Positions 7,243 to 48,657 of a DNA stretch of 64,000 bases are shown piece after piece; the first letter of the stretch is position 1; the number at the start of each line of letters is the position of its first letter. Both the position numbers and the translations under genes were made by a program. The stretch is from assembly GCA_027491155.1 (NCBI GenBank), contig JAIXWR010000035.1, positions 124,001 through 188,000 on the forward strand. Direction: 5' to 3'. The notes beneath the pieces are model-generated. The model was not told where the DNA came from, made no database searches, and worked only from the letters and a program-made list of their open reading frames with translations. Origin of the DNA: Verrucomicrobiaceae bacterium (lineage in GTDB: Bacteria; Verrucomicrobiota; Verrucomicrobiia; Verrucomicrobiales; Akkermansiaceae).

Positions 7243-7252
7243 GCTTCCCCCC

Positions 7253-7280
7253 AAAAAAAACGGCGACCCGCAGGCCGCCG
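7253..7280 (-). terminator. Rho-independent terminator of the proline-rich protein gene
   Basis: Read on the reverse strand, a CGGCG...CGCCG stem with a 10-base GC-rich loop (7261-7280) is followed immediately by eight T residues (7253-7260). It lies 40 bases beyond the stop codon of the 7320-7964 gene and between the two convergent transcripts. Confidence 0.7.
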
Positions 7281-7290
7281 CTCTTCTCAA

Positions 7291-7318
7291 GTCTTGCGTC
7301 TTCGAGTCTCGGGGTCTC
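7291..7318. repeat. Degenerate heptad tandem repeat (GTCTTGC-type)
   Basis: Four successive 7-base units can be read: GTCTTGC, GTCTTCG, AGTCTCG, GGGTCTC. They end one base short of the stop codon of the proline-rich gene. The same words recur at 8122-8157. The period of seven matches other arrays in the window. Confidence 0.5.
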
Positions 7319-7319
7319 C

Positions 7320-7964
7320 CTACTTGATCTCCATCCCGCTGTTCGGCCAGATCCACTTCTTGACCTCGCCGCCTTGGATCAGCGCCTTGGCTTGGATCGT
7401 CTTCACGCCGAAAATCGTCTCCGCCTTGTAGGCCGCGACGCCGGTCTGGTACTTCTCGCCGTCCACTTCCTCTTCCTCGCCGGCCTTCCAGCCCAGCACC
7501 TGGTCGAAATTGAATTCCTTCACCTGCTTCGCCCGGATGCTGTCCTGCATGACCTTCACGATCTCTTCCGGACCCAGCGCGGCGGCCGGGGTCGGCGGGG
7601 CGGCCGGCGGGGCCGCGGGCTCTTCCTCCATCGGCGGCTCGGCGTCGTTCTCCGCCACCGGCGGCGGCTCGACCGGCGGCGGGGTGGCCGGAGGAGGCTC
7701 GACGGGAGGCGGCGTCACTGGCGGCGGCTCGGGGTCGTTCTTCACCACCGGCGGCGGCTCGACAGGGGGCGGGGCCACCGGCGGCGCCACAGGAGGCGGA
7801 GCGACCGGCGGCGGCGCGGCGTCCGTGGTGCCGTCTTCCGCCAATGCCGTGTTCTTCGGCTTGCCAGGAACCTGTCCCGTCAAGGTCGGCCGCATTTCGG
7901 GCTCCAGCAGGTAACCCGCGAATCCTGAAGCCGCGACGCAGAGAATGGGGAAGAAGAACTTCAT
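7320..7964 (-). CDS. Proline-rich exported or membrane-anchored protein of unknown function
   Basis: 214 aa. A short N-terminal hydrophobic segment (KFFFPILCVAASGFAGYLL) could be a signal anchor. Residues ~50-125 are a low-complexity region of repeated APPPV/EPPPV units with a few acidic interruptions, resembling the periplasm-spanning linker of TonB-like proteins. A compact C-terminal domain (~85 aa) follows, with mixed charged and hydrophobic residues and no motif I recognise. No TonB C-terminal signature is evident. It is a single gene with its own downstream terminator. A cell-wall-spanning linker with a small periplasmic domain is the most that can be inferred. Confidence 0.75.
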   Translation of the reverse strand: MKFFFPILCVAASGFAGYLLEPEMRPTLTGQVPGKPKNTALAEDGTTDAAPPPVAPPPVAPPVAPPPVEPPPVVKNDPEPPPVTPPPVEPPPATPPPVEPPPVAENDAEPPMEEEPAAPPAAPPTPAAALGPEEIVKVMQDSIRAKQVKEFNFDQVLGWKAGEEEEVDGEKYQTGVAAYKAETIFGVKTIQAKALIQGGEVKKWIWPNSGMEIK

Positions 7965-8022
7965 CGTGCTGCCCCATACGTAGGGATTCCGCCCGTCCTT
8001 TGACCAGAATTTTTCCCTTCTT

Positions 8023-8081
8023 CGCCCTATCGGGCTACGAAGGGCAGGCCCTCCTCCCGGGAGCGCCGGTCTGCGACCGGC
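8023..8081. repeat. REP-like pair (inverted) upstream of polA
   Basis: A reverse-strand element has GTAG (CTAC at 8035-8038) next to the hairpin GCCCTATCGGGC. A forward-strand element has GGAG (8060-8063) followed by CGCCGGTCTGCGACCGGC (8064-8081; stem CCGGTC/GACCGG). The tetranucleotide-plus-hairpin layout and inverted pairing are those of REP/BIME elements. Confidence 0.6.
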
Positions 8082-8121
8082 CCGAATGGTCCCCGACCGC
8101 CGGCGTTCAGCCGCCCCGCCT

Positions 8122-8157
8122 TCTTGCGTCTTGTGTCTTCCCGTCCTGTGTCTTCAC
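8122..8157. repeat. Degenerate heptad tandem repeat just upstream of polA
   Basis: Units TCTTGCG, TCTTGTG and TCTTCCC, then an 8-base variant, then TCTTCAC, run up to eight bases before the polA start codon. The pyrimidine-rich array occupies the place where a ribosome-binding site would be expected, and no Shine-Dalgarno sequence is visible. Confidence 0.5.
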
Positions 8158-8164
8158 TCCGCCC

Positions 8165-14865: not shown

Positions 14866-15708
14866 ATGAAAACCGGTCTCCATGTTTTTGCCGCCTACCT
14901 CGCGGCTTTGCTCCCGTTCCAACTTCGAAGCCAGGAACCAACGACGCCGTCCGCAGACCGGGCCACCATTCCTGGATCTCTCGCCGTCGCGGAATTTGTT
15001 CCTCCGATCCCGGCACCACCGAAGCAAGTCCCCGCGATGCGGATCGAAGCGGCAACTGCCGTATCCACCGCCAACGGCAGGACCCTGACAATCCTCCGGG
15101 GCGAGCCATCCAGGCTTCCCGACATTCCGCCCCGACCCGAACCTCCGCTGTTGGTCCTCCGCGAACGCACCCCGGAGGATCTTGCCCGGGAAGTCTACCG
15201 GCGGCGGCACTCGATCCAACTAAGTGCCACGGTTTACGATCGCCGGGTCAGCATCGTCCGCTGGCAGCATCCGGACACTCGCGAACCCTACGAAGCCATC
15301 TGCGGCTTCGATGTCGGATTGCTCGCAGGGATCGGCCGTTTCGTCCGCAATGGCGAGAACTACAACCTGATGTTGCTGCACACCGTGATCGACACCCAAC
15401 GCGCGAGAAATCCCGGGTTGCGTGCATTCCCAGACCATTCAGGAGTGGCTAACGGCTCGATTCGCTTCATGAAGGGTGACCCCGAAAACCTGCTCGGGGC
15501 CACACCGATCCACCTGATCGAGGAACTTCTCGCAAACGAGAAGACCCGCCTGGAAACCTTCCAAGCCGATCTCGAACGCTATCGAGATGCCCGTAAAGCT
15601 TGGGAGAAAGCCAACCCGGTCCCGCCCCGGGACGAGACGTTCTGGATTCGTCCGCACCGTGGCAGCCGCTACCTCGCGCAACTGGTTCCCGCCAAAGATG
15701 CACGCTAA
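14866..15708 (+). CDS. Secreted protein of unknown function
   Basis: 280 aa beginning with a clear signal peptide (MKTGLHVFAAYLAALLPFQ, cleavage probably near LRS-QEP). After a proline-rich linker (PPIPAPPKQ and PPRPEPPL) comes a ~170-residue domain containing RRRHSIQLSATVYD, the aromatic WQHPDTREPYEAICGFDVG, and a charged helix near the C-terminus (LLANEKTRLETFQADLERYR). I do not recognise a family. It is the first of three co-directional genes; the metalloprotease-like gene starts 19 bases downstream. The start at 14866 is preferred over an upstream frame because of the signal peptide. Confidence 0.7.
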   Translation: MKTGLHVFAAYLAALLPFQLRSQEPTTPSADRATIPGSLAVAEFVPPIPAPPKQVPAMRIEAATAVSTANGRTLTILRGEPSRLPDIPPRPEPPLLVLRERTPEDLAREVYRRRHSIQLSATVYDRRVSIVRWQHPDTREPYEAICGFDVGLLAGIGRFVRNGENYNLMLLHTVIDTQRARNPGLRAFPDHSGVANGSIRFMKGDPENLLGATPIHLIEELLANEKTRLETFQADLERYRDARKAWEKANPVPPRDETFWIRPHRGSRYLAQLVPAKDAR

Positions 15709-15727
15709 GCACCCGAGCATCATTCCG

Positions 15728-18163
15728 ATGAAAAATCTCCTGCTTCGCGCGCTCCTGCTCGCCCCGGTTCTGCAGCTCTCCGCGCAATCGCCCGGCGTCG
15801 ATCAAGGCTCCGAACTTCTCATCGTGCCTCCGGACGACAAACTCCTTTGCTGGGAGGGTCATCCCGGCCGGACCTATTTCATCCAGATCTCGATCGGCAG
15901 CGAGCCTCTCGTCGAGTGGCACTGGATGCCGGTCATCGACAGCGGGACTGGGGTTGCAATAAGCTACGAGGTGGACGGGACCAGCGCGCGCGGCTTCTAC
16001 CGGCTGCATTACACGGACGAACCCTGCCCTCCAGGCGTCACGCTGGAAGAGTGGGACGCTGACGGTGACGGTCGCTCGAACGAAGAAGAAGTTTCCGGAA
16101 CGCCCCAGTCGCACCCGCTAAAGTTTTCGACCTCCGACACCGGGCTACCCGATGGCTGGGCTGTCGCTCATGGCCTGGATCCGAACGACTCTACGATCGG
16201 GGGACTACAGTTTGGCGAAACTGGAATCACCAACATCCACGCGTTCGAGAGTGGCATTCAAGCTCATCCGAACGCCACCCCCACCAATCTCGATGGCGAC
16301 AACGCCGAGAATGATGCTGATGCGGACCCCAATGATATTATAATCAACTGGAAGCCAGTTCCCGTTCCCCGCTTTGCGATGATCGAGCTCAATGTGGAAA
16401 GCCCGGAGCAACTGCACCTCGACGATCTTTACGAGGACGGCACGATCCTTCTGAGCCGCAAAGAGGACTCGGATACGATAGGTCGCGTCGTCATCGACCG
16501 ACAGCAGGCCGTTCACCCGTTTCTTGCGGGCAACGTTCCGCCGGAAGGGGGATTCGCCGGGTTCGGGCCAGTGCTCGTCGAAGGCAAAGTGCCGGGGTTC
16601 CATTACCCGGCAGGCAGCATTGGCTACGCCGACTCGCTTTGGGATCCGGTTGCCGCAACGTTCACCCCGTGGTCCACACCGGCGGGTGATCACGACAACC
16701 TTCGCGATGAACGAGGCGGCCTGACCGTGCTCACAAACTTTCTCGCGTCGGAATTCATCCACTTCACGCCGGGTGGAAGTCGACTTCCCGGGGACGACCC
16801 TGGTTCAACTCGTGCGCGGATCGAGAAAAACGGCAACGTCGTCTCGGAACGGGGATACTGGCGGAAGAACCCATCGACCGGCGCCTTCGGGGACCGTGCC
16901 CACCTCGCCGAAGAGACCACGGTTCATTCCGCGACTATTGTCGAATCGCAGACCGGCGGCGCGCAAACCCGGACGTGGAATCTCGTCGCGGGAACTGGCG
17001 GCGTGTCCGTTTCCGAGGACGGTGGCGGGTTCCAGAAAGCGAAGGGAGAACTCGGAAAAGTTCGGATCGACGCGGTCACCCAACAAGGCTGGGCGCTCGA
17101 CAAAGCCAACCGCAGGATCAGGGCCAATGACATGTGGCATCCCTTGACCTCGCTTTTCGGCACTCCCGCCCCGGAGGAAGTCGATATCCTTGAGATGATG
17201 GACACGGGATTAGCAGTGGCCAGAATCAGAAAGACCAGCTCACCGGCCGAAACGCTCGTTCTCCTCGTTCCAGTGGACATCGATGACAATTCCTTCGCCA
17301 CAGGAGTGGACGAGACCTCCATCAAGGCAGCTCCGACTGACTTGGGCTATCAGGAAAACTATTGGATCATGGCACCCTCGGGGAACGATCCGAACGGAAA
17401 TCCCTGCTCCAACGAAATGATCTTCAAGATTCCTGCCAGTCCCTCGACTGAGCTGGAAATTACCTATCCCGGAGGGCCACCACCCGCAACTCCCACGCCC
17501 GGGACACTTGGGCTTTCTCCGACAGGTTCGGCCTGTGCCTGGCACGGCGAATCTCAGGCCACCACCGAGACCCCCGCCGCGGTTTGGAAGATGGGCGTTG
17601 CCGGGCAACCGAGAACCGAGGTGAATCTACCGGTCGCCGTGAAGACCATGAAGCGCCGCACTGTGAGGGTGGTGGTGTGGCCGGTGAACCGCCTCGGCGT
17701 CCCCGGGCTTTTCTCCGACGAGGCAAACAGGAATGCCTTCAAAGACAACCTGAGAACCACACTCGATCAGATATTCGCGTTTCAGATCAACGCATGGTTT
17801 GATGTCACCATAGGCCAAAATAAGGAGTTCGACTATTTGGACGGCGGGGGTGACGGTTCCTCGGACCCTTACACCCTAAGACATGGCAGCAAGGAGAAGG
17901 ACATGATCGATCAGAATCGCGATCCCAGCTTCGATATCAACGTTTTCCTAATCGACAACGTCGTCTACACCGGCGATTCGTCAGACCCGGAGGGATACAC
18001 TTTACTCGGATCGAGCTACCCTGAGGGCTTTCCGGGTGCTGAAGGCCGCGAGAACAGCGTGATCGCAAATATGAGTGCTCTTCACACTGGCGGCTCGGAT
18101 CGACTCCACACCATTGCCCACGAAATCGGCCACTTGCTGTTAGGGGAAGGCCACCCGAATTAG
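15728..18163 (+). CDS. Secreted zinc metalloprotease-like protein, truncated by an amber codon
   Basis: 811 aa as read. Signal peptide (MKNLLLRALLLAPVLQLSAQ); an N-terminal module common in verrucomicrobial secreted proteins (RTYFIQISIG and ARGFYRLHYTD); a calcium-binding type-3-like repeat (DADGDGRSNEEE and GLPDGWAVAHGLDPND); a long middle region of unknown function; and a C-terminal protease-like domain ending in AHEIGHLLLGEGHPN. HEIGH is a zinc-binding site. A TAG stop follows two residues later (18161-18163), yet the frame continues for 56 plausible codons. The product as annotated would lack the Met-turn part of a metzincin-like fold and may be inactive. The middle of the gene has lower GC than the flanking chromosome. 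Confidence 0.75.
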   Translation: MKNLLLRALLLAPVLQLSAQSPGVDQGSELLIVPPDDKLLCWEGHPGRTYFIQISIGSEPLVEWHWMPVIDSGTGVAISYEVDGTSARGFYRLHYTDEPCPPGVTLEEWDADGDGRSNEEEVSGTPQSHPLKFSTSDTGLPDGWAVAHGLDPNDSTIGGLQFGETGITNIHAFESGIQAHPNATPTNLDGDNAENDADADPNDIIINWKPVPVPRFAMIELNVESPEQLHLDDLYEDGTILLSRKEDSDTIGRVVIDRQQAVHPFLAGNVPPEGGFAGFGPVLVEGKVPGFHYPAGSIGYADSLWDPVAATFTPWSTPAGDHDNLRDERGGLTVLTNFLASEFIHFTPGGSRLPGDDPGSTRARIEKNGNVVSERGYWRKNPSTGAFGDRAHLAEETTVHSATIVESQTGGAQTRTWNLVAGTGGVSVSEDGGGFQKAKGELGKVRIDAVTQQGWALDKANRRIRANDMWHPLTSLFGTPAPEEVDILEMMDTGLAVARIRKTSSPAETLVLLVPVDIDDNSFATGVDETSIKAAPTDLGYQENYWIMAPSGNDPNGNPCSNEMIFKIPASPSTELEITYPGGPPPATPTPGTLGLSPTGSACAWHGESQATTETPAAVWKMGVAGQPRTEVNLPVAVKTMKRRTVRVVVWPVNRLGVPGLFSDEANRNAFKDNLRTTLDQIFAFQINAWFDVTIGQNKEFDYLDGGGDGSSDPYTLRHGSKEKDMIDQNRDPSFDINVFLIDNVVYTGDSSDPEGYTLLGSSYPEGFPGAEGRENSVIANMSALHTGGSDRLHTIAHEIGHLLLGEGHPN

Positions 18164-36587: not shown

Positions 36588-36980
36588 CTTTCTCCCCACC
36601 ACCTCCCCCGCCACCCCGATCCCCACCCCGACGGCGTAGCACAGCAGATCCGTCGCCACCCAGCCCCTGCCCAGCACCAGAGCGCCGGGCCGTGTCGCGC
36701 GGATCCGGTCAAGCCAGTTCGCCTCCCAGAGCTGGCTGAACTCCACCGCAAAGGAGATCCCCAGCGCCGCTGCTGCCAGGATACCCGTCCGCGCCGCGGG
36801 AAAGAGCAGCCCGAGCCCCAGGAATACCATCAGCGCCCACAGGGTGTCCCCGGCATAGGCCGCGACCCAGCCGGGCAAGACCGATGCACCCGCCGAACGC
36901 GAACCCAGGCCCGCCGCGATCACCAACGCCAGCCACCCGGCACGGACCCACCGGTTCCGGAGCGGCGGCCCGGTTCTCAC
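36564..36980 (-). CDS. DUF2809-like small membrane protein
   Basis: 138 aa, four hydrophobic helices. Family features: GLGSRSAGASVLPGWVAAYA, GDTLWALMVFLGLGLLFP, FAVEFSQLWEANWLDRIR and LGRGWVATDLLCYAVGVG, the SRK-like start and the VEFSQ helix typical of DUF2809. Function unknown. The GTG start overlaps the stop of the upstream gene by 4 bases. The last seven residues (CRVPSAE) and the TGA stop are encoded by the heptad array, so the natural C-terminus may have been altered by repeat growth. Confidence 0.8.
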   Translation of the reverse strand: MRTGPPLRNRWVRAGWLALVIAAGLGSRSAGASVLPGWVAAYAGDTLWALMVFLGLGLLFPAARTGILAAAALGISFAVEFSQLWEANWLDRIRATRPGALVLGRGWVATDLLCYAVGVGIGVAGEVVGRKCRVPSAE

Positions 36981-38233
36981 TTCTTGATCCGGATCGAGGT
37001 CCCGCAGAACGTGCAGTTGAACCATCGGAACGCCAGCACGTGCATCGCCACCGCCCCGATGTAGCCGAAGACCGGCAGGTGGTGCGCCTTCTTGTTCTTC
37101 AGGCACTGCTTCGGCACGTAGATCCGCTGGGCGCAGACCCGGCATTTCGCGCGGGTGCCGACGAAGGCGTAAAGCAGCCCCAGCACCGGCAGGGCGATCG
37201 GAAAGGCGATGATCCAATGAGGCACCCACGGGAACTTCTCCGGCATCAGGTCGGAAAGGATCAGCAAGGGCGCCGCCACCACCGCCAGCGGCAGGCAAAG
37301 CTGGAGCAGGATCAGGAACAGGCCGCCGAACCAGACCATGAAAGGCCGGTCGTGCAGCACGCCGCGGATGTAGAACTTCGATCCCGGCTTGCGTCCGGCG
37401 TTCGTTTCAGGACGCGGCGCGCGCAGCAGGGCGATCCGCTCGTCCTCCATCCCGGCCCGGGTCGAGGCGGCGCGCACCGGAGGGGCGTCGCCCTGCGCTT
37501 CCTCGATCGTCCGGACCTTGGCAACGTCGATCCCGCGCCGGCCGACGGAAAAGCCGAGATCGGCCACCTGCACCGCCCCGCTCGCGGTCGCGCGACGGCT
37601 CGCGGCCGGTGCGGCGGGCAAGTCCTTGCGCCGGGGTTTCTCGACCATCACCCGGACTTCCATGTCCCCGAAGGCGCGGTTGAGCACCGGCGCCACCGGA
37701 ATCTCCGACGGCGCGATTCCCCGCTCCGCCAGCATCCGGGCGGGAATCGGCAGCGCGAAAGGCGCCGCGGCAAGCATCTCGATCACGTCGGGCTCCGCCT
37801 CGAAATTGACCGGCCCGGAAAGGGCCTTGAGCTCGGCTTCGCCGGAGTCCTCGGGCGGCTCGGAAGCGGCGGACTTCGCCGGCCTTGAAGCGGGAAGCGG
37901 ATCCTTCGTGGCCGACTTCGCCGCGGACTTGGCGCGGCTCGCACGGCGGGGCTTATCCGGCGGGGCTGCATCGCGCGGGGCCGCTGCCTTTCTCCCGGCC
38001 GGCTTCGCCGCTCCCGGCTCGATCATCCGGCCGGCGGCCGAAATCCAGCGCTCCACCTTCTTCCGCTCCGGGGTCCGCGGGACGATCCGCAGCATCTCGT
38101 TGGCCGCTTTGATCTCCTTCAGCAGCACCTCGATGTCCGCCCGCGCCAAGGCATGGGCGTCCGTCCAGCCGGTGGCGACCAGCAACTCGGCCTCGTCCGT
38201 GCCGATTCCATCGATGTTCTTGAGTTCCGACAT
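36977..38233 (-). CDS. DUF4332-like helix-hairpin-helix protein with membrane segment and zinc ribbon
   Basis: 418 aa. Residues 1-70 (MSELKNIDGIGTDEAELLVA, then WTDAHALARADI) look like a DUF4332 helix-hairpin-helix pair. A long Ala/Lys/Pro-rich disordered region (residues ~75-290) with basic runs follows. Two or three membrane helices (residues ~305-370) and a C-terminal zinc-ribbon pair, CRVCAQR ... CTFCGTS, complete it. Such fusions have no assigned role; a membrane-tethered nucleic-acid or protein-binding function is a guess. The ATG at 38233 is chosen at the start of the conserved domain. It is translationally coupled to the DUF2809 gene. Confidence 0.62.
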   Translation of the reverse strand: MSELKNIDGIGTDEAELLVATGWTDAHALARADIEVLLKEIKAANEMLRIVPRTPERKKVERWISAAGRMIEPGAAKPAGRKAAAPRDAAPPDKPRRASRAKSAAKSATKDPLPASRPAKSAASEPPEDSGEAELKALSGPVNFEAEPDVIEMLAAAPFALPIPARMLAERGIAPSEIPVAPVLNRAFGDMEVRVMVEKPRRKDLPAAPAASRRATASGAVQVADLGFSVGRRGIDVAKVRTIEEAQGDAPPVRAASTRAGMEDERIALLRAPRPETNAGRKPGSKFYIRGVLHDRPFMVWFGGLFLILLQLCLPLAVVAAPLLILSDLMPEKFPWVPHWIIAFPIALPVLGLLYAFVGTRAKCRVCAQRIYVPKQCLKNKKAHHLPVFGYIGAVAMHVLAFRWFNCTFCGTSIRIKK

Positions 38234-38408
38234 CCCCCCGGTGCGAAAGCCCGAGCCTAGGCAACCGGGCGCGGCTGGCAAGGCCTCATCCGGGCACGGA
38301 GGAACCGGTTCGCCGTGTCCATCCCACAGGTCCCTGTCTGACCGGTTTAGCAGCCGGGTGAACTACCGATGCGCCGCGGGAACCGCCATACAGCCTGAAC
38401 CGCGATGG

Positions 38409-38488
38409 TCCCTGAGGGATGGCACGCTCCGCATATTGACAGCCTCAGTCATGTTGACTGGATTGCGGCCCGAGACGGGCTGCCCTAC
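38409..38488 (-). repeat. Two REP-like elements at the end of the defence operon
   Basis: Read on the reverse strand, GTAG (CTAC at 38485-38488) precedes GGCA and the hairpin GCCCGTCTCGGGC (38468-38480). A second has GGAG (CTCC at 38427-38430) followed by CGTGCCA and TCCCTCAGGGA (38409-38419). The first GTAG contains the TAG stop of the GIY-YIG gene. The rest of 38234-38484 holds no gene that I can support. Confidence 0.55.
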
Positions 38489-39717
38489 GAAGCAACTGGA
38501 ACAATCTCCGCGGTGGCTGGCTCATAACGGTAGTTTCCGATACTCCCGTCCATCAGCTTCCCAATCGCCTCCTCGATCACCGCATAGGGCGCAAGAAACC
38601 ACTCGCGAGGAGTCACCTCGAAACCGAAGCGGTCCTTCAGCTCGAAATCCAGACGCGCGCTGCCGAAAAACTTGTGAAGCAGCGCTTCCAGCCGCTTCCG
38701 GTTGATTTGCGCGAGCTTGTAGGTCGCGACGATCTCAACGTCCGCCAGCAGGTAAGTGGGATCCTTCCTTGCATTGGCGATCCGCACCTTCACCTCGCCT
38801 CCGGTCACTCCAATCTTGTGCAGCACCAGCCGGTTCTCGGCGACAAACGGATGATCCGACTTGCTGCGCAGCACGTAGATGTAGCCCGAAGGGATGTCAT
38901 CTTCCTCTTCTTCACCCGAGAAAAGAGGCCCGAAATCCGGCTCCGTGATCCGGCGGCTGACCTTGTCCTTGTTCAGCGCCCGTTGGAGCGAGCGCAGCAG
39001 CAGGTCGCTTTCCGTGCCGTTGTCATAAACGACCCGGAGCCGGCGGTCGGGCCTGCCGTATTCGCTGACGAATTCCTCGCCCATGTCCGCCACGATGACC
39101 TTCTGGCCATCCAGAATGAACAAGTCGCCCTTCTGCACGTTGGCGTAATCCTTGTACTTGAAGGTTTGCCGCTGGCCGCTCGACAACTCTTGCTGCACCC
39201 GCTCGAAGACCGGCCGGAACGCATCGAAATCCTCACAGGGATTCCTCTTCGCCACCTCCTCCGCCGCGCGAATCTCTTCCCGGGAACGCACGTGCCTTAG
39301 CTCCGCGATATCGCGTTCTTCCCCATCGTCCCCGCGCAGGGCGGACAGAAGCTCGTCATCGCTCGGCACCTCCGCCACCGCGGTACCCGGCCGGTCCCCG
39401 CCCGGTTCTTCGCGCAGACCGCCGGTGCCCCGCCCGATTGGTGCCGATGAAAGCAAACCGCGGGGATCCCGCTCCTTCAGCACCGCCCGGCACTCCGCGG
39501 ACCCACGGATCCGGTCCAACCTCACCGCATAGAGCCTTTCGAAAATGTCCCGATCTTCGCCATGCTGCGGCAGGCGGTCGTGCTCCGAGACGAAGCGCTC
39601 GATCTCCTCGAAGCCCGCAATGATCCGCTGCTCTTTCGCGGAGCTGGCGCCGCCCTTCGCCGGTTTGGCGTAGCCGCTCAGCTCCGACCGGAGTTCATCG
39701 AGGTCGATCTCACTCAT
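38485..39717 (-). CDS. GIY-YIG nuclease domain protein (T5orf172-like)
   Basis: 410 aa. The C-terminal third carries a GIY-YIG-type nuclease of the T5orf172 class: GYIYVLRSKSD, LHKIGVTGGEVKVRIANA (the conserved lysine, isoleucine-glycine and arginine) and a closing PREWF. The N-terminal ~270 residues are unrecognised: helical, with GQRQTFKYKDYANVQKGD and QKVIVADMGEEFVSEYG suggesting a beta-rich middle domain. It is the last gene of a four-gene operon, and its start overlaps the helicase stop by 8 bases. A DNA-cleaving role in a restriction complex is inferred. Its TAG stop lies inside a REP element. Confidence 0.8.
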   Translation of the reverse strand: MSEIDLDELRSELSGYAKPAKGGASSAKEQRIIAGFEEIERFVSEHDRLPQHGEDRDIFERLYAVRLDRIRGSAECRAVLKERDPRGLLSSAPIGRGTGGLREEPGGDRPGTAVAEVPSDDELLSALRGDDGEERDIAELRHVRSREEIRAAEEVAKRNPCEDFDAFRPVFERVQQELSSGQRQTFKYKDYANVQKGDLFILDGQKVIVADMGEEFVSEYGRPDRRLRVVYDNGTESDLLLRSLQRALNKDKVSRRITEPDFGPLFSGEEEEDDIPSGYIYVLRSKSDHPFVAENRLVLHKIGVTGGEVKVRIANARKDPTYLLADVEIVATYKLAQINRKRLEALLHKFFGSARLDFELKDRFGFEVTPREWFLAPYAVIEEAIGKLMDGSIGNYRYEPATAEIVPVAS

Positions 39718-41806
39718 AGCGCCCTTCATCCTTGAAACGAACGAACGCCGCCGCTCCTTCCGCCATGCGCTTTTCCCACGCATCTTGCGAAGTCACGGAC
39801 GGCAGCCGTCCCCGCTCTTTCTTGAAGCGGAACGCCCGGATGGCAAGGTCCTTCGCCTCATCCGGCGTCAGGTTCGTCCGCTTGGCGGCAATCGCCTCCG
39901 CCACCAGCTTCAAGCGCTCCTCGTTCATCGCTTTGGCAAGAATGGCGTAGGCCTCGCTGAAGGGGTTGATGTGGTCGATCAGATCGATCTCCAACTCCTT
40001 CACATCCATCGCGAACTTCCGCACGCCGTCGATCAGCGCGGTGTTCCTGGCTTCCTCGCCACTGCTTCCACCGCCACCGCCACCGCCACCGGAGTCGTTG
40101 CTTTCTTCATCCAGCGCCTTCTTCGCCTGCTGCACCAGGTTCAGCGCCGCGATGGCATGCTGACGGACGGCTTCGCGGTCTTCGTCGTCCAGATTGGGAA
40201 ACTTTTCCTGGATGATCTTCCCCATCCGCACCTGGGTCAGCTCCTCGGGAACCAGTTCCTCCCCGGCAAACAAGCCCTTTTCCAGCGCGGGCTTGTCCTG
40301 CACGAAGGCCGTGACCAGCTCGTTCAAGTCCTCCTGGCAGATGCGCTCCGCCTCCTTGCTCTTCGGCACGGCGAGGCCCTTGATCTCCAGTTGGATGTTC
40401 CCGGTCACCGGATTGTAGCCGATGTTCGTCTTGGCCGGATCGTAGCCGCCGGGACCGTAGTCGAAGCCGGGCGTCGGCTCGTTGTTCGGGTGCTTCGGCT
40501 TGAACTCGAAGCGCGGGGCCAGCACCTGCTCCATCAGCAGGCTCGCCGCGATGGCCTTCAAGGTGTCGTTCACCGCCTCGGTCACCGCCTGCTCGCTGGC
40601 GTCCGGCTCGGCGATCAGATTGGTGAAGCGGGCCCGCGTCTTGCCCGGCGCGTCGCGGGTCGCCCTGCCGATGATCTGGATGATCTCCGTGAGGCTGGAG
40701 CGGTAGCCTACGGTCAATGCGTGCTCGCACCAGATCCAGTCGAAGCCCTCCTTCGCCATCCCGAGCGCGATGATGATGTCCACGTGGTCTCGGTTGTTCT
40801 TCTGCGCCGGATCCTTCAGCGCGGCCAGCACCTTGGCGTGCCTGTCGGGACCGTCATCCACCAGGTCGGCCACCTTCAGGATCCGCCCGTCGGCGCGCTC
40901 CACCAGGTCGAAGCCGGTCACCGGGTCCTTGCCCTTCCATTCTCCCACCGCCCCGAGGATCTCGCCGACCTCCGTGTCTTTGCCCCGCCGGGTGCTCTCC
41001 CGGGAAGCGACGTGCGGGATGTGCAGGATCGTCTTCAGATCGGAATCCAGCACCTTGACGATGTCGTCGATGTAGCTGCCGCTGTAGAAGAAGTAACCGA
41101 TGTCGAGCTGCTTCAGGTATTCGTAGCCGTTGAGCTGCTCGTAGTAGGTGTAGGTGACGGTATCGAACTTCGATTCGTCATCCGGGTGCAGCACCGCCTC
41201 CGCATCGCCGCGGAAGTAGGAACCGGTCATCGCAACGACGTGGGTCTTGCCCCGCGCCATAAGCTGGCGGACGTGCTCGCCCAAGCGGTTGTCGGGATTC
41301 GCGGAAATGTGGTGGAACTCGTCCACGGCGATCAGCCGGTCGTCGAAGACTTCCGGCCCGAACTTCTCCATCGCGAATCGGAAGGTCGCGTGGGTGCAAA
41401 CCAGCGCCTTGTCGTCGCTGCCGAGGAAGGTCTTCACCGCCTCCACCTTGCTGCCGCTGTCGGACCCCGCCGCGTCGCACAGGTTCCAGCGCGGATCGAC
41501 CTTCCAGTCGGCGAAGAAGCCGTGCTGGCTCAGCGGCTCGTCGTGGAAGCTCGCGCCGATCGATCGCTCCGGCACCACGATCAGCGCCTGCTTCACGCCC
41601 TGGTTCGCCAGCTTGTCCAGCGCGATGAACATCAGCGCCCGGCTCTTGCCGGAGGCCGGCGGCGACTTGATCAGCAGATACTGCTCGCCGCGCTTCTGGT
41701 AGGCGCGCTCTTGCATTGGGCGCATGCCCAGCTCGTTCGGGCGGGTCGAGCGACCGTCCCGGGCGTAGGTGACGGAGACGGAGGGGATGGATTGCGGATC
41801 GCTCAT
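39710..41806 (-). CDS. Superfamily 2 DEAD/DEAH-type helicase (restriction-type translocase)
   Basis: 698 aa. Helicase motifs: LRPMQERAY-type Q region (GMRPMQERAYQ), Walker A SPPASGKSRA, motif Ia VVPERSIG, motif II DEFHH (DExH), motif III AMTGSYFRG, motif V/VI GMAKEGFDWIWCE and IIQIIGRATRD. Residues ~460-570 are unusual, with a Gly-Tyr-rich stretch, followed by a run of eight glycines encoded by a CCACCG microsatellite (near 40070). The C-terminal part has no recognised domain. Probable ATP-driven translocase for the adjacent methyltransferase/nuclease. Overlaps both neighbours. Confidence 0.85.
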   Translation of the reverse strand: MSDPQSIPSVSVTYARDGRSTRPNELGMRPMQERAYQKRGEQYLLIKSPPASGKSRALMFIALDKLANQGVKQALIVVPERSIGASFHDEPLSQHGFFADWKVDPRWNLCDAAGSDSGSKVEAVKTFLGSDDKALVCTHATFRFAMEKFGPEVFDDRLIAVDEFHHISANPDNRLGEHVRQLMARGKTHVVAMTGSYFRGDAEAVLHPDDESKFDTVTYTYYEQLNGYEYLKQLDIGYFFYSGSYIDDIVKVLDSDLKTILHIPHVASRESTRRGKDTEVGEILGAVGEWKGKDPVTGFDLVERADGRILKVADLVDDGPDRHAKVLAALKDPAQKNNRDHVDIIIALGMAKEGFDWIWCEHALTVGYRSSLTEIIQIIGRATRDAPGKTRARFTNLIAEPDASEQAVTEAVNDTLKAIAASLLMEQVLAPRFEFKPKHPNNEPTPGFDYGPGGYDPAKTNIGYNPVTGNIQLEIKGLAVPKSKEAERICQEDLNELVTAFVQDKPALEKGLFAGEELVPEELTQVRMGKIIQEKFPNLDDEDREAVRQHAIAALNLVQQAKKALDEESNDSGGGGGGGGSSGEEARNTALIDGVRKFAMDVKELEIDLIDHINPFSEAYAILAKAMNEERLKLVAEAIAAKRTNLTPDEAKDLAIRAFRFKKERGRLPSVTSQDAWEKRMAEGAAAFVRFKDEGRYE

Positions 41807-42945
41807 GCGGGTTCTTCGGAATCGTTCAGGGTGTCGCCCGCCAGCTCGCGCTCGATCTGCTCGATGCTCGGCAGGCTGCTTTGCAGTTCGGGCGGCAGGG
41901 ATTCGACGAGCTGGTAATCCGCCACCCCCAGCGGCTGCGTCTTGTCGCGCAGCGCGTATTCGGCCACCACCTTGTTTTTGCTTTTGCAGAGCAGCAGTCC
42001 GATGGTCGGGCCGTCCTGCGGGTGCTTCATCTGGGCGTCCACCGCGGTCAGGTAAAAGCCCAGCTTCCCGAGGTGCTCCGGCTTGAATTTACCGGCCTTC
42101 AGCTCGATCACCAGGTAGCGGCGGAGCTTCAGGTGGTAAAAGAGCAGATCGAGGAAGAACTCGTCGCCGCCCACATCCAGCAGGACCTGCCGGCCGACGA
42201 AGGCAAAGCCCGCGCCGAGCTCCAGCAGGAAGTCGGTGACGTGCTTCACCAGCGCGTTTTCGATCTCCCGTTCCTGCGCCTCTTCGCCCAGGCCGAGGAA
42301 GTCGAAGCGATACGGATCCTTGAGCGACTCCCGCGCCAGATCGGACTCCGGCTTGGGCAGGGTGAGGGCGAAATTCGTCACCGCCGTGCCGCTGCGTTCG
42401 ATCAGGCGGGTCTCGATCTGCATGACCAGGATGTTCCGCGACCAGTTGTGCTCGATGGCTTTCGCGGCGTACCAGAGGCGGTCTTCGCGGATCTTGAGCT
42501 TGTCGAGGAGGACGCAATGGTGCCCCCAAGGCAATTTGTCCAACAGCTGCTGGACAATTGGACCCGATCCCGATTTGTCCACCAGCGGGTGGACCATTGC
42601 CGGCCCCTCCAATTGGCCAAGCACCCCTTGGCCAATTTCCTCGGTGGACCATGCTTCGGCAAACGCCCGCATGTACATGAGGTTCGTGCGGGAGAATCCC
42701 TTCATCTGGGGAAAATTCGTCCGCAAATCCTGCGCCAAGCGGTCAATGATCTTCGCTCCCCAGCCCTGTTGTTCCTGCTGATCCAGGATCGCCCTGCCGA
42801 GCGTCCAATAGAGGGAGACCAACTGGAGATTCAGTGCTTGCGCGGCTCGTTGCTGGGCCTCGTGAATCTGCCTTTTGATGTCGCCCAACCATTCCGAGTA
42901 GCCGGCGGGCGGCGGGGTCAAACTTACGGGATTCTCGTCATTCAT
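41803..42945 (-). CDS. DUF1016 / YhcG-like PD-(D/E)XK nuclease family protein
   Basis: 380 aa. The N-terminal winged-helix-like DUF1016 region begins with EWLGDIKRQIHEAQQRAAQ and VSLYWTLGRAI and has FSRTNLMYMRAFAEAW. The C-terminal nuclease-like core contains DEFFLDLLFYHLKLRRYLVI then IELKAGKF, matching a D...E-x-K active site, and YLTAVDAQMKHP. YhcG-type proteins are widespread beside restriction genes, but their role is not settled. The ATG overlaps the methyltransferase stop by 4 bases and the stop overlaps the helicase start by 4 bases, so it is an integral operon member. Confidence 0.88.
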   Translation of the reverse strand: MNDENPVSLTPPPAGYSEWLGDIKRQIHEAQQRAAQALNLQLVSLYWTLGRAILDQQEQQGWGAKIIDRLAQDLRTNFPQMKGFSRTNLMYMRAFAEAWSTEEIGQGVLGQLEGPAMVHPLVDKSGSGPIVQQLLDKLPWGHHCVLLDKLKIREDRLWYAAKAIEHNWSRNILVMQIETRLIERSGTAVTNFALTLPKPESDLARESLKDPYRFDFLGLGEEAQEREIENALVKHVTDFLLELGAGFAFVGRQVLLDVGGDEFFLDLLFYHLKLRRYLVIELKAGKFKPEHLGKLGFYLTAVDAQMKHPQDGPTIGLLLCKSKNKVVAEYALRDKTQPLGVADYQLVESLPPELQSSLPSIEQIERELAGDTLNDSEEPA

Positions 42946-45743
42946 GCCTTCCTCCTCCCTGCCGCCTTCTTAGCCGGGGCCTTGGCGGTCATCTGGGTGT
43001 AGAGCTCGAAGAGCTTCTCCAGCCGCTCGGTGTCGTTCTTGAAGCGCCGGCCGAGGTAGATGCGCTCCAGCGTCTCGTCGTTCTGCTCGTGCGCGGCGCG
43101 CAGGTCGGCGGGCATCGTCTCCGGATCGTAGAGGTCGGCGATGGTCGCCGGGAAATGCGCCTCCCGCGCCAGCAGGATGTCCTCCGCGCAGCGCGTCAGG
43201 TCGGCCTTGTTCTGCGCGGTCAGCGGCGGGACGGGGAAGGTGTTCCAGCAAAGTGTGTTCGTAAACCGATAGTCAGTTCTCATGCGAGCACACACGGCAG
43301 CAACCCACGCAAGCAGCATCTTCGAGACCACCAAACCAAAAACCCAAAGGTCCTTACACGGCATCGCGAACGCAAGGTTGGAGACGACCGTCCCTCTCTC
43401 TAATAGTCCTGCTGGCAAGTAGTGCCGATTCTCAGAACTGGTGATTGGAACGCAAATAACAGGTGTTTCCGGCAAAGGCTTTCTCTCGTCAAATCTATAG
43501 GGCCACGCAGCAGCCTTCACCGTCGCAGCCTTGCTACTGGCTAGACGGAAACGACGAACATCTTCGAACCTTTTTTGGAGGCTAGGCAGAGCCTCTGCCT
43601 CCTTCCGTCGGCTATCATCAACCCACAAACAAAACCGACTAAGACCTCGAATCAATTCCATCGACCCTACGAATGGACGAACGAATGTTCGTATCTGGTC
43701 ATCGTTCAACTGGAGCTCTTCTAACGAATCGGAATCCAACAACAGACCTCCTCCGTCTGTAGGTGAATTCCCTCGATCAAACTGAGGGAGATTCGAGAGA
43801 TGAGTTCGCTGCGATTCTACAAACGTATCTGCTGCTGGGATCAGGTAAGCATTCAGCGAAGGAACGCGCCTCGTTTCAACTTCACCTTGCTCGCCCTCCT
43901 CAAACAACAAAGCACCATTACACTTTGACGAGAAACCGACGATGACGACAGTGACCCCAGCGTTATTGCTGGCCAGATTTCGCCAGTTGAAAGATGCGTG
44001 AGCGAACGAAATTCGCTGCTTTTTATCGAATATCAGAGGCCAAAGAATTGCTGCTTGCTGGCCCTGACAAATTGAATTCGTTGCGACAAACGCCACTCCA
44101 GTTTCAGTAAAAGTTGCATAATCTGCCCCTTTTTTAAACCATCCAGCCACATAATCCAAAGATCTCCAATTTTCGGTGTTGAGCTCAAATATCGCTCGAA
44201 GATCAGCCTTTTGATTCTCCTCCTGACGTTTGCTTCCCAGATAAGGCGGATTCCCGCAAATATAAGTCTCCCCGCCCTCGTTCTCGAAATCGATCTCCGC
44301 CTGATCCAGCGGCGTGTCGAACAAATCGTCCGCGCGATTTTTGACCCCTTTCCCGGTGGGCGGGCAGATGCTCAGCCAGTCGAGGCGGAGGGCATTGCCG
44401 CAGTGGATCCAGTTCGCCGCTTCGAGCGGCAGGAATTCCGCCAGCGCGAGCTGCTGGCCGCGGTAGAGGACGTCGCACTGGTATTCCGCGATGATCAGCG
44501 CGAGGCGGGCGATCTCGCAGGAGAAGTGGCGGATCTCGATGCCGCGGAAGTTGGTGAGCGGGATGATGGATTTGAGATCGGGCTCGCCGCGGCGGCGGTT
44601 GATCTCCGCCTCGATCTCGCGCATCTGCTTATAGGCGATGACCAGGAAATTGCCGGAGCCGCAGGCGGGATCGAAGACCCGGATGCGGGCGATGCGCTGG
44701 CGCAGGTTCAGCAGCTTGCGCGGGTTGTCCCCGGCCTCCTCCAGCTTCGCCCGCAGCTCGTCGAGGAAGAGCGGGTTGAGCACTTTGAGGATGTTCGGCA
44801 CGCTGGTGTAATGCATGCCGAGCGAGCCGCGCTCCTCGTCGTCCGCCACCGCCTGGATCATGGAGCCGAAGATGTCGGGATTGATCTTCGTCCAGTCCAG
44901 CCCGCCGACGTGGAGCAGGTAGCTGCGGGCGATCTTGCTGAAGCGCGGGACGTCCACGCTGTCCGAGAACAGGCCGCCGTTCACGTAGGGGAAGCCGTTC
45001 GCCCAGCTCTTGATCTTCCTGGCTTCCCGGTAGCGGTTGTCGAGCTTCCCCTGGTGGCGGACCGGGACGTTCATGGCGCGGAACAGCTCCGAGATCACCT
45101 CGTGGGTGTTCGAGGAATCCCGCGCGCTCATTTGCGTGACGGTGGTGGTGAACAAGCCGTCGCCCTGGAAGATCCCGGTGTCCTCCGCGAAGAAGCAGAA
45201 GATCAGGCGCGCCATGAAGTGGTTCAGGTCTTCCCGGCGGGCGGCGCTGGACCATTCCGGGTTGTCCTTCAGCAGCTCGATGTAGAGCCGGTTCAGGCGG
45301 CCGGTCGCCTTGATGTCGAAGGCGTTTTCCCGGATCTGGCGAACGGTGGAAATGCCGGCCAGCGGGAGGAAGAAGCCGAAGTGGTCGTCGAAGCGCTGGA
45401 ACTCGCAGGCCAGCGTCTCGCCCTCGCCTTCGAGCGACTCGGCCTGAAGCTCGATGCCATCGGTGGCGAGGATGAACTTCACCTTGTGCCGCAGCGTCGC
45501 CGGGCTCTCCCGCAGCTCTTTGAGCGTGCCCGGCACGTGGCCTTCCGGGCAGGTCTTGAGGTGGATATTGCTCCGCTGGAGTACGCCCCGGACGTCGGAC
45601 TGGTTGGTCGCCCCGCTTTTCAGCCGCTGCACCGTCGCGGCCTTGTTGCCGAAGGCTTCCAGAAAGGCGTAGGGGAAGACCGCGGCGTCGAAGGGCTCCT
45701 TCGCCAGCTTGGAAACGGCTTCTTCGATCTCGACGGCGTTCAT
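42942..45743 (-). CDS. MmeI-like DNA methyltransferase with target-recognition region
   Basis: 933 aa, close to the length of MmeI-type fused R-M enzymes. Methyltransferase motif I is FDPACGSGNFLVIAY (residue ~355) and the catalytic motif IV is CGNPPYLGSKRQ (residue ~495), indicating amino-group (N6-adenine-type) methylation. The C-terminal half contains the MmeI-like blocks FVRPFVGSMELIRGLSRFCL and NTFPVPPLTAQNKADL. The N-terminal ~150 residues align in position with the MmeI nuclease domain, but I see no D...ExK cluster, so cleavage is probably done by partner proteins. The coding DNA for residues ~505-830 is distinctly AT-richer than both ends. First gene of the operon. Confidence 0.85.
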   Translation of the reverse strand: MNAVEIEEAVSKLAKEPFDAAVFPYAFLEAFGNKAATVQRLKSGATNQSDVRGVLQRSNIHLKTCPEGHVPGTLKELRESPATLRHKVKFILATDGIELQAESLEGEGETLACEFQRFDDHFGFFLPLAGISTVRQIRENAFDIKATGRLNRLYIELLKDNPEWSSAARREDLNHFMARLIFCFFAEDTGIFQGDGLFTTTVTQMSARDSSNTHEVISELFRAMNVPVRHQGKLDNRYREARKIKSWANGFPYVNGGLFSDSVDVPRFSKIARSYLLHVGGLDWTKINPDIFGSMIQAVADDEERGSLGMHYTSVPNILKVLNPLFLDELRAKLEEAGDNPRKLLNLRQRIARIRVFDPACGSGNFLVIAYKQMREIEAEINRRRGEPDLKSIIPLTNFRGIEIRHFSCEIARLALIIAEYQCDVLYRGQQLALAEFLPLEAANWIHCGNALRLDWLSICPPTGKGVKNRADDLFDTPLDQAEIDFENEGGETYICGNPPYLGSKRQEENQKADLRAIFELNTENWRSLDYVAGWFKKGADYATFTETGVAFVATNSICQGQQAAILWPLIFDKKQRISFAHASFNWRNLASNNAGVTVVIVGFSSKCNGALLFEEGEQGEVETRRVPSLNAYLIPAADTFVESQRTHLSNLPQFDRGNSPTDGGGLLLDSDSLEELQLNDDQIRTFVRPFVGSMELIRGLSRFCLWVDDSRRKEAEALPSLQKRFEDVRRFRLASSKAATVKAAAWPYRFDERKPLPETPVICVPITSSENRHYLPAGLLERGTVVSNLAFAMPCKDLWVFGLVVSKMLLAWVAAVCARMRTDYRFTNTLCWNTFPVPPLTAQNKADLTRCAEDILLAREAHFPATIADLYDPETMPADLRAAHEQNDETLERIYLGRRFKNDTERLEKLFELYTQMTAKAPAKKAAGRRKA

Positions 45744-45951: not shown

Positions 45952-48657
45952 TCAGCCGAGCCCCGCCAGCATCTCACGAAGCTGCACCAGCTTGCCCTGC
46001 CACTCGACAATGCGCGCTTTTTCCTGCTCCACCACCGCGGCCGGGGCGCGGGCGACGAAGCTTTCGTTGCCGAGCTTGGTCTCGCAGCGGACGACCTCCT
46101 GCTCGATGCGGGCGATCTCCCTCGAAAGACGGATCTTCTCCGCTTCGACATCGATCAGGCCTTCCAGCGGCAGGTAAATCTCGCCGACCGGGGTCAGCGA
46201 CACCGGCGTGCCCTTCGGCGCGTCGTAGGCGGCATCGAGCACGATCTCCCCCGCCCCGGAAAGCAGGGCGAGCACTTGCTGCTGCTCCGACAGCCACTCG
46301 ACCGCGCCCTTCACCACCAACTTCACGTCGCGACGGCTGCCGACGTGGTATTCGGCCTTCAGGTTGCGGACGCGTCCGGCGGTTTCGTAGATCGCGGCGG
46401 CTTTGCTTTGCTCGGCGGCGATTTCCTCCGCAGCCAGCCCGGCCAGCACCGGCTCGTCGGGCAGCGGCTCCTGCATCAGGAACTCGCCTTCCTCCAGATA
46501 GCCCATCCGCAGCGACAGCTCTTCGGTCACGTGCGGCATGTAGGGATGGAGCAGTTGCAAGAAGCGGCTCATCACGGTGTCGAAGACCGACAGCGTGACC
46601 GCGCGGGCTTCCGGCGTCGCGCTTTCGCGCAGGTCGCCCTTCACCGCTTCGAGGAACTTGTCGCAGAACTCGCCCCACAGGAAGTCGTAGAGCCGCTGGG
46701 CGATCTCGCCGAAACGGTATTCGCCGTAGATCCGCTCGAGGTCCACCGCGAGCTGGTCGAGCTTGGCCAGGATGTCGACGTGGAAGCAGTTCGCCATGCC
46801 GATCACCTCGTCGTCGCCGACCTCGGCGGTGGGCGCCTCGATCTCGTCCGCCATCTGGCGGAAGCGGCAGGCGTTGTAGAGCTTGTTGGCGAAGTTCCGG
46901 CCTTCCTCGACCGACGACTCGTCGAAGCGCACGTCGCTCCCGACCGGCGCGATCCGCATCAGGCCGAAGCGCAGGCCGTCGGCGCCGTACTTCTCCATCA
47001 GGTCGATCGGGTCGGGCGAATTGCCCAGGGACTTGCTCATCTTGCGGCCCTGCAGGTCGCGGATGATCGAGGTGAAATAGACGTTCTTGAACGGCAGTTC
47101 CCCTTCGAAGCGGAAGCCGGCCATGATCATGCGGGCAACCCAGAAGAAGATGATGTCGGGCCCGGTCACCAGATCGGTGGTCGGGTGGAACTTCTTCAGC
47201 GTGGCGCTCTTCTCACCGACGTTCGTCATGGTGGCGAAGGGCCACAGCCAGGAGCTGAACCAGGTGTCCATCACGTCCTCGTCGCGGACCCAGTTGTCGG
47301 CGTCGGCGGGAGGCTCCACGCCGACGAATAGGTCGCCATGGGACAAATGGGACGTATCAAGCGACTCGGCGTTCTTGAGATCGTCGAGTTTGTCCTTCCG
47401 ATACCACACCGGGATCTGGTGGCCCCACCAGAGCTGGCGGGAAATGCACCAGTCCTGGAGGTTCTCCATCCAGTGGGCGTACGTCTTGGCCCAGCGCTCC
47501 GGGCGGAACTGGATCTCGCCGGTGGCCACCGCGTCGGCGGCCTCTTTCACGCAGGGATACTTGAGGAACCACTGCATCGAGATCCGCGGCTCGATCGGCA
47601 CGTGGGCGCGCTCGGAGAAACCGACGTTGTTCTCGTATTCCTCCACCTTGAGCAACAGCCCTCGCTCTTCCAGCATCGCGGCGGCCTTCTTCCGCGCCAC
47701 GAAGCGGTCCAGCCCGTGCAGCTCCGGCACCTCCGGGCAGTTCACGTGGCCGTCAGGCGTGAGGACGTCGATGATCTCCAGCCCGTGGCGCAGGCCGATC
47801 TCGAAGTCGGACTTGTCGTGCGCCGGGGTGATCTTCAGCGCACCGGTGCCGAACTCGATGTCGACGTGATCGTCCGCGATCACCGGGATCGGCGTGTGCG
47901 GGAAGGGACGATAGACCATGCGGCCGATGTTCTTCGCGTGGCGCGGGTCCTTCGGGTTCACCGCCACCGCCACGTCGCCCATCAGCGTCTCGGGGCGGGT
48001 GGTCGAGATCTCGAGGAATTCACCGGGCGCGTCGGTGAACTCGTACTTCATGAAGTAGAGCTTCGAGCGCTGCGGGGTCATCACCACCTCCTCGTCAGAC
48101 AGCGCGGTGAGCGAAACGGGGCACCAGTTCACGATCCGCTTGCCGCGGTAGATCAGGCCTTCCTTGAACAGCTCGACGAAGACGTGGCTGACCCACTTCG
48201 TGTACTCCGCGTCCATCGTGAAGCGCTCGCGCGACCAATCGCAGGAGCAGCCGAGGCGCTTGAGCTGGTTGATGATGATGTCGCCGTGCTTGTCCTTGAA
48301 GGCCCAGACGCGCTTGAGGAACTCGTCGCGGCCGAGGTCGCGGCGGGTGAGCTTTTCGTTTTCGCGCAGCTCCCGCTCGACCTTCGCCTGGGTGGCGATG
48401 CCGGCGTGGTCGGTGCCGGGCAGCCACAGGACCTCCATGCCTTTCTGGCGGGCGCGGCGGGCCAGGACGTCCTGGATGGTGTTGTTGAGGACGTGTCCGA
48501 GGTGCAGGATGCCGGTGACATTCGGCGGCGGGATGACGATCGAATAGGCGGGCTTTTCCGACGACGGGTCGGCTTCGAAGCATTTCCCCTCGATCCAGGC
48601 GGCGTACCACTTGGCTTCCACCGCTTGGGGTTCGTAGGCTTTGGGCAAATCGGACAT
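45952..48657 (-). CDS. valS: Valyl-tRNA synthetase
   Basis: 901 aa class I synthetase. The ATP site has PPPNVTGILHLGH (HIGH motif as HLGH) and KMSKSLGNSPDP. The editing domain (TTRPETLMGDVAVAVNP), the zinc/tRNA region and a C-terminal coiled coil (residues ~840-900) are all present, as in full-length bacterial ValRS. The gene stands alone. Its 5' side carries a structured leader and an intrinsic terminator hairpin 55 bases upstream of the ATG. The R-M operon begins 208 bases after the stop on the same strand. Confidence 0.97.
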   Translation of the reverse strand: MSDLPKAYEPQAVEAKWYAAWIEGKCFEADPSSEKPAYSIVIPPPNVTGILHLGHVLNNTIQDVLARRARQKGMEVLWLPGTDHAGIATQAKVERELRENEKLTRRDLGRDEFLKRVWAFKDKHGDIIINQLKRLGCSCDWSRERFTMDAEYTKWVSHVFVELFKEGLIYRGKRIVNWCPVSLTALSDEEVVMTPQRSKLYFMKYEFTDAPGEFLEISTTRPETLMGDVAVAVNPKDPRHAKNIGRMVYRPFPHTPIPVIADDHVDIEFGTGALKITPAHDKSDFEIGLRHGLEIIDVLTPDGHVNCPEVPELHGLDRFVARKKAAAMLEERGLLLKVEEYENNVGFSERAHVPIEPRISMQWFLKYPCVKEAADAVATGEIQFRPERWAKTYAHWMENLQDWCISRQLWWGHQIPVWYRKDKLDDLKNAESLDTSHLSHGDLFVGVEPPADADNWVRDEDVMDTWFSSWLWPFATMTNVGEKSATLKKFHPTTDLVTGPDIIFFWVARMIMAGFRFEGELPFKNVYFTSIIRDLQGRKMSKSLGNSPDPIDLMEKYGADGLRFGLMRIAPVGSDVRFDESSVEEGRNFANKLYNACRFRQMADEIEAPTAEVGDDEVIGMANCFHVDILAKLDQLAVDLERIYGEYRFGEIAQRLYDFLWGEFCDKFLEAVKGDLRESATPEARAVTLSVFDTVMSRFLQLLHPYMPHVTEELSLRMGYLEEGEFLMQEPLPDEPVLAGLAAEEIAAEQSKAAAIYETAGRVRNLKAEYHVGSRRDVKLVVKGAVEWLSEQQQVLALLSGAGEIVLDAAYDAPKGTPVSLTPVGEIYLPLEGLIDVEAEKIRLSREIARIEQEVVRCETKLGNESFVARAPAAVVEQEKARIVEWQGKLVQLREMLAGLG

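Follow-up and report, generated by a model that had tools for sequence, protein, structure and literature searches.

We analysed a stretch of 64,000 nucleotides from contig JAIXWR010000035.1 (positions 124,001 to 188,000) of a Verrucomicrobiaceae bacterium, referred to here as the window. On its minus strand, at positions 38485-45743, an operon of four genes encodes an MmeI-type methyltransferase (MTase), a DUF1016/YhcG protein, a DExH helicase and a T5orf172 GIY-YIG protein, and all four open reading frames (ORFs) were present. By sequence, the core formed by the MTase, the helicase and the GIY-YIG protein is the published DnmA(YeeA)-YeeB-YeeC set. The whole operon is probably a DnmA-YeeB-YeeC restriction-modification system of a Type I-like kind, with an accessory gene of a nuclease family embedded in it. 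As sequence comparison of relatives showed, the junction between MTase and helicase is a variable cargo slot, and the recognition domain of the MTase has been exchanged between otherwise similar copies.

The core trio and its distribution

The MmeI-family DNA methyltransferase (DnmA/YeeA type, 933 aa, 42942-45743) matched the PADLOC family REase_MTase_IIG and has the Pfam domains MmeI_N, hel, Mtase, TRD and C, the same five in the same order as MmeI (Type IIL). Residues 14-910 of MmeI (5hr4), nearly its full length, aligned with a profile built from 19 MTase relatives. D70, E80 and K82 of MmeI are each essential for cutting (PMC4833311). Opposite these the window MTase has G, K and C, and none of the 19 aligned MTases, read by eye, kept D, E or K at its own position. 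The loss of the N-terminal nuclease site, proposed in a preliminary description of this DNA, is therefore borne out at all three residues. Both MTase motif patterns that we searched were present in 61 of 65 MTases, the window protein included. The alignment and domain matches thus show a predicted methylation core and recognition domain (MmeI_TRD, residues 637-841, 43221-43835) without the nuclease residues of MmeI. Whereas MmeI carries its PD-ExK nuclease in the same chain, the window MTase, if it restricts, would depend on separate proteins. Its start at 45743 agrees with the N-termini of relatives, and the reading frame itself is open to 46151.

The SF2 DExH helicase/translocase (YeeB type, 698 aa, 39710-41806) matched Pfam DEAD and ResIII, and motifs I, II and VI were present in all 65 sequences compared, including that of the window. 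Its predicted model was weak (mean pLDDT 71.5, pTM 0.50) and matched MrfA, DbpA, EcoR124I HsdR and HamB, which points to a general SF2 motor and nothing narrower. The YeeC-type protein (38485-39717, from the ATG at 39717) matched Pfam T5orf172/MUG113. Counted from an alternative start at 39783, its residues G300, Y303, K323, G325 and R334 occurred in 86 of 86 sequences and E366 in 85 of 86, again with the window included. In PADLOC and NCBIfam scans the GIY-YIG protein matched no family, and the helicase had weak matches only. A sequence search of the PDB returned no match for the helicase at E <= 0.001, nor for the GIY-YIG or DUF1016 protein at E <= 1.

The DUF1016/YhcG protein (PD-(D/E)XK family, 380 aa, 41803-42945) lies as accessory cargo between MTase and helicase. 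Its start overlaps the MTase stop by 4 bases (42942-42945) and its stop overlaps the helicase start by 4 bases (41803-41806). The overlap of helicase and GIY-YIG gene is 8 bases only if the latter starts at 39717; alternative in-frame starts lie upstream at 39729 and 39783. The ORF coordinates thus confirmed the 4-, 4- and 8-base overlaps given earlier for the four genes, as Pfam did the families then assigned to them (MmeI-type MTase, DUF1016, SF2 helicase and T5orf172 GIY-YIG).

The trio, known from Bacillus subtilis, was recognised by family content and gene order. Like the published set, the window has an MmeI-like MTase lacking the PD-ExK residues, with a YeeB-type SF2 helicase and a T5orf172/GIY-YIG gene downstream on the same strand. 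A 2023 survey placed the helicase and GIY-YIG genes first and second downstream of the MTase (PMC9973331); in the window the helicase is second because DUF1016 is inserted. The same survey names an unresolved 'Uncharacterized protein family' as a possible further member, and reports the trio as conserved in further species (PMC9973331). DnmA of B. subtilis, one of the control genomes with an MmeI_Mtase match, produces m6A in GACGAG (PMC7261158). MmeI homologues without the nuclease, lying beside yeeB/yeeC-like genes, had already been given a Type I-like reading (Morgan 2009, as cited in PMC7261158). The preliminary description had allowed that part of the set might be known, and the trio is that part; the idea that the four genes form an unknown combination was accordingly dropped.

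Relatives of the helicase were encoded by at least 588 genome-contig stretches in a contig scan and on 264 plasmid records. Within the phylum of the window, 21 of 387 genomes searched had one, as did 3 of 18 genomes of its genus (its own genome included), a patchy spread such as would be seen for a mobile defence set. Named trio relatives came from Verrucomicrobia, Cyanobacteria, Proteobacteria, Bacillota, Actinomycetota, other groups and plasmids, among them a Bacilli relative (L019) with a helicase 45% and an MTase 39% identical. We examined 92 loci, namely the best 80 of the at least 588 genome relatives and 12 plasmid loci, a sample biased toward sequences near the window's helicase in which two loci (L026 and L087) derive from one metagenome-assembled genome. 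The GIY-YIG gene followed the helicase in 89 of the 92 and an MmeI-type MTase preceded it in 82, a recurrence which argues that the operon arrangement is not due to chance. Ten loci lack the MTase; in eight of them the available upstream sequence is shorter than 2 kb, and it reaches 5.1 kb in L026 and 3.7 kb in L066.

Exchanged recognition domains and a variable cargo slot

Where helicases were at least 85% identical (108 pairs), median identity was 87% for the helicase, 84% for MTase residues 161-490, 78% for the MTase end and 69% for the GIY-YIG protein, and 43% for the recognition domain. Across 2016 pairs of 64 MTases, the recognition-domain median held at 42-46% in all bins with a helicase identity of 60% or more. 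Conversely, 12 pairs whose helicases were 70-85% identical had recognition domains at least 70% identical. The flat identity together with these 12 high-sharing pairs is better explained by exchange than by drift. The recognition domain was kept in one near-identical pair (L039/L062). Diversification of recognition domains is reported for the MmeI family (PMC4833311, PMC3874165).

The MTase-helicase junction was compared in the 82 loci with both genes; 31 were empty (MTase and helicase within 150 bases), 50 were filled and one had a broken MTase (L021). The MTase of L014, a locus with more than 150 bases between the two genes, is short (579 aa). In 25 of the 31 empty loci the two genes overlap by 4 bases. 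For 47 of the 50 filled loci (L023, L024 and L030 left out), the cargo start overlaps the MTase stop by 4 bases in 30, as in the window, which suggests co-translation, and the cargo stop overlaps the helicase start by 4 bases in 14. The slot held a same-strand ORF in 49 of 50 filled loci, L030 having an opposite-strand ORF only.

Cargo was searched with Pfam (E <= 1e-5) in 91 slot proteins, a set that excludes L021, L023, ORFs below 80 aa, opposite-strand ORFs and some ORFs judged spurious. DUF1016/YhcG (10) and RhuM (7) were followed by HATPase_c_4 (4), AlbA_2, BrnT and NTP_transf_2 (3 each) and HepT, PIN and AAA_21 (2 each); GmrSD, DUF559, Macro, Fic, KilA-N, DUF4062, a second N6 MTase and others occurred once each (25 of the 37 families are among the matches listed). 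The cargo includes MNT/HepT and ordinary toxin-antitoxin pairs, and PLD-like matches were weak. When 30 slot proteins were scanned singly, 10 had no family at E 0.05. A 260-aa helical family without a Pfam match was seen in six loci (L044 at 9204-9986, L010, L043, L079, L096 and L135). A short motif had hinted at a HEPN fold, but for its model of fair quality (mean pLDDT 85) Foldseek found no PDB match at E <= 0.001. The slot of L135 (2173-6801) contains another large N6 MTase (960 aa) along with more ORFs, one of the 260-aa family; one system may here lie within another.

Cargo turned over repeatedly on a quick helicase tree with long branches and without bootstrap (104 rows, 98 labelled). 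Cargo state required 55 changes and DUF1016 versus other cargo 14; among seven main groups DUF1016 required 12, of which 11 were forced by well-supported branches. Labels were assigned by hand, one per locus even where several genes were present (such as L022, L024, L059, L068, L094 and L136); the DUF1016 label of L026 refers to a fragment as far as 4.8 kb upstream, and six rows were unlabelled. The tree omits L021 and L023 (broken genes), L080 (short helicase), L133 (a duplicate of L025), and L139, L142, L144, L146 and L148. Near cores differed in cargo: L046 had none, L043 the 260-aa family, L050 DUF1016 and L051 a 277-aa family. Likewise, DUF1016 in L065 stood against none in L075, and nearby L048, L054 and L070 had DUF1016, DUF559 and AlbA. 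DNA comparison of near pairs left two stretches without detected similarity, the recognition part of the MTase and the slot, between conserved DNA.

The closest relative, genome G006 (locus L129), has a helicase 95% identical. Before it, at 7100-9073, lie a Fic-like gene, a scrap of MTase end, a DUF1016 gene with an internal loss and a VapB/PIN-like pair, the Fic and PIN readings being made by eye with L022 as a guide, in which both have Pfam matches. This layered cargo in one slot looks like a snapshot of turnover.

DUF1016 and the genomic surroundings of the operon

The DUF1016 gene of the window is uninterrupted and its product, the sole YhcG_C match in its own genome, matched Pfam YhcG_C (1.4e-61) and DUF1016_N (2e-40), the domain pair of PDC-S02 with its PD-(D/E)XK fold, as well as the PADLOC PDC-S02 models (1.1e-159). 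PDC systems are unvalidated defence candidates found by 'guilt-by-embedding' (PMC10855318), so that this match confers candidate status only; no mechanism for PDC-S02 came to light in the literature examined. A phmmer search with one query sequence, by which divergent copies may be missed, found DUF1016 anywhere in the locus in 12 of 92 loci; in 11 it lay no more than 3 kb upstream of the helicase. The four-gene order recurred in L015 (a complete operon on a plasmid), L035, L040, L048, L065 and L130.

On plasmids, 12 DUF1016 loci were opened of 476 records with a match, using an incomplete gene table. One (L170) has DUF1016 followed by helicase and GIY-YIG genes, with no MTase listed, and four lie in Type I operons: L168 reads hsdM-DUF1016-hsdS-RhuM-hsdR, L173 and L175 have DUF1016 after hsdS, and L177 has it between hsdM and hsdS. 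The remaining seven list neither the trio nor a Type I operon alongside. L168 (3998-7424) is from an Aeromonas plasmid, and the two genes embedded in its Type I operon (DUF1016, RhuM) occur as cargo of the trio slot as well. The preliminary description had staked its proposal on the four families keeping company; homologues of the trio were not usually found apart, whereas those of DUF1016 were. On a DUF1016 tree with 5 of 20 inner branches starred, a Type I copy and two solo copies lay among the slot copies, and a single clade of slot copies was rejected, at p-AU 0.0089 for the full set of rows and 0.0125 once the long rows L134, L140 and L179 were removed.

The operon occupies 7.7 kb between a gene at 45952-48657, which by eye we take to be valS, and a gene at 36977-38281. 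A homologue of the latter abuts valS in 8 of 10 relatives of the same genus (L153-L159 and L165), and other DNA lies behind valS in the remaining two, G006 and G010. Read by eye, this is a sigma-factor-like gene in G010 (L152) and an antitoxin/PIN-like pair in G006 (L151). The 3' end of valS is possibly an insertion hotspot in this genus. Elsewhere in the window, the region 15587-18163 has a lower G+C content (about 56-59%) and an 858-aa ORF ending, by eye, in a zinc-peptidase-like HEIGH motif.

Known systems and alternative readings

The window shares with DnmA-YeeB-YeeC its gene order, the MmeI-like MTase without PD-ExK residues and the adjoining helicase and nuclease genes, but has the extra DUF1016 gene between MTase and helicase. 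With Type I Hsd systems it shares a motor, an MTase and a recognition module, and DUF1016 and RhuM are embedded in both operon kinds. DarTG2 has been described between hsdS and hsdR of a Type I operon, at what was termed a potential hotspot of recombination (PMC12255303). Unlike Type I, with its separate HsdS and an HsdR in which the nuclease is fused to the motor, the window has its recognition domain fused to the MTase and a separate GIY-YIG protein as nuclease candidate; in the four proteins Pfam found no HsdS domain, and in the helicase it found the ResIII motor and no nuclease domain. A BREX or DISARM variant was rejected, as the four proteins include no PglZ or DUF1998 and the sole likeness is that of the MTase to PglX (3e-7) and DrmMI (1.8e-28), among the best 25 of 30 PADLOC families. 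These comparisons support the earlier view that the set is not a canonical Type I, II, III, ISP, DISARM or BREX system.

In the proposed mechanism, the MTase would mark one asymmetric site on host DNA, a role supported by homology. On unmodified incoming DNA it would recruit the YeeB motor, which would move along the DNA, and YeeC would cut; intact motifs and the analogy with Type I suggest these motor and cutter roles. The work of HsdM, HsdS and HsdR would thus be split over separate proteins. DUF1016 would probably be co-translated cargo with a job of its own, as a second DNA nuclease or a backup effector, and not a required subunit.

Several results weigh against this restriction reading. 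The GIY-YIG protein has diverged further than the helicase in close pairs (median identities of 69 and 87%). In B. subtilis, loss of dnmA left transformation and plasmid uptake unchanged (PMC7261158), deletions left sensitivity to three phages unchanged (PMC9973331), and the authors termed the trio a restriction relic (PMC7261158, PMC9973331). The available text of the literature on the trio yielded no biochemical test of YeeB or YeeC. DUF1016, moreover, recurs in the window's clade (the window, L130, L022, and decayed in L129). Its slot copies cluster both on the helicase tree (12 changes against a shuffled mean of 15.3, 11 of 500 shuffles being as low) and on the DUF1016 tree (4 against 7.7, 2 of 500), so that some fitting to the trio operon is possible. 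The B. subtilis experiments favour a relic in which only the MTase works, as an orphan expression regulator, and the helicase, GIY-YIG protein and cargo are passengers. We consider this unlikely, as the helicase motifs are kept in 65 of 65 sequences and the GIY-YIG residues in 85-86 of 86. Exchange of recognition domains beside a conserved remainder is what would be expected for restriction under phage selection, and speaks for a system that is active and diversifying, not a relic. In addition, loss of dnmA or yeeB in Vibrio crassostreae raised sensitivity to some phages (study cited in PMC9973331).

The split translocating complex proposed in the preliminary description holds insofar as it is a split, possibly translocating restriction set, but a four-part complex with two constitutive nucleases does not fit the occurrence of DUF1016 in 12 of 92 loci. 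A four-subunit complex that requires both DUF1016 and the GIY-YIG protein as nucleases is very improbable, even though the four genes overlap in one operon, their order recurs in the six loci named above and, short of a listed MTase, on plasmid L170, and slot copies of DUF1016 are partly clustered. The other loci have unrelated cargo or none, and the closest relative has a decayed DUF1016 beside open helicase and GIY-YIG frames; 7 of 12 plasmid copies list neither host operon alongside in the incomplete gene table. Repeated gain and loss on the helicase tree, with at least 11 changes forced by well-supported branches, rejected DUF1016 as an obligate subunit. Alternatively, the slot could be a recombination-prone spot in a mobile operon whose cargo is unrelated to the restriction core, in keeping with the diversity of cargo families, ordinary toxin-antitoxin pairs among them, and with the occurrence of DUF1016 elsewhere. 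This has some appeal but is doubtful. A same-strand ORF is present in 49 of 50 filled slots, and in 30 of 47 loci the cargo start shares 4 bases with the end of the MTase gene. Type I operons, too, contain embedded DUF1016 and RhuM genes, and it was by embedding that PDC-S02 came to be listed as a defence candidate (PMC10855318).

We also considered a bolder and rather doubtful extension of the restriction reading, that the junction is a dedicated plug-in slot. The motor and cutter would be kept, the recognition domain and a co-translated effector swapped, and the cargo would guard the core, being released or triggered when a phage blocks restriction. The effectors would be DUF1016, RhuM, Schlafen-type, HEPN, PIN, Fic, PLD-like and other proteins, from a pool partly common to Type I operons. 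The swap pattern itself was shown by the comparisons above; the guard function is a guess. If this were true, each operon would provide defence in two layers, either of which could be replaced.

The trio and the embedding of defence genes in Type I operons (PMC12255303) were known already. No earlier report of the slot at the trio junction, or of recognition-domain exchange in the trio, was found in the open-access PMC literature, a scope that leaves out preprints and most subscription papers. The trio was called a relic on the strength of work in one species; the exchange of recognition domains while motor and cutter are retained suggests that restriction still operates in many copies. With the cargo slot, the restriction operons whose gene positions can reveal new defence genes would no longer be limited to Type I, and DUF1016 gains a natural setting for study.

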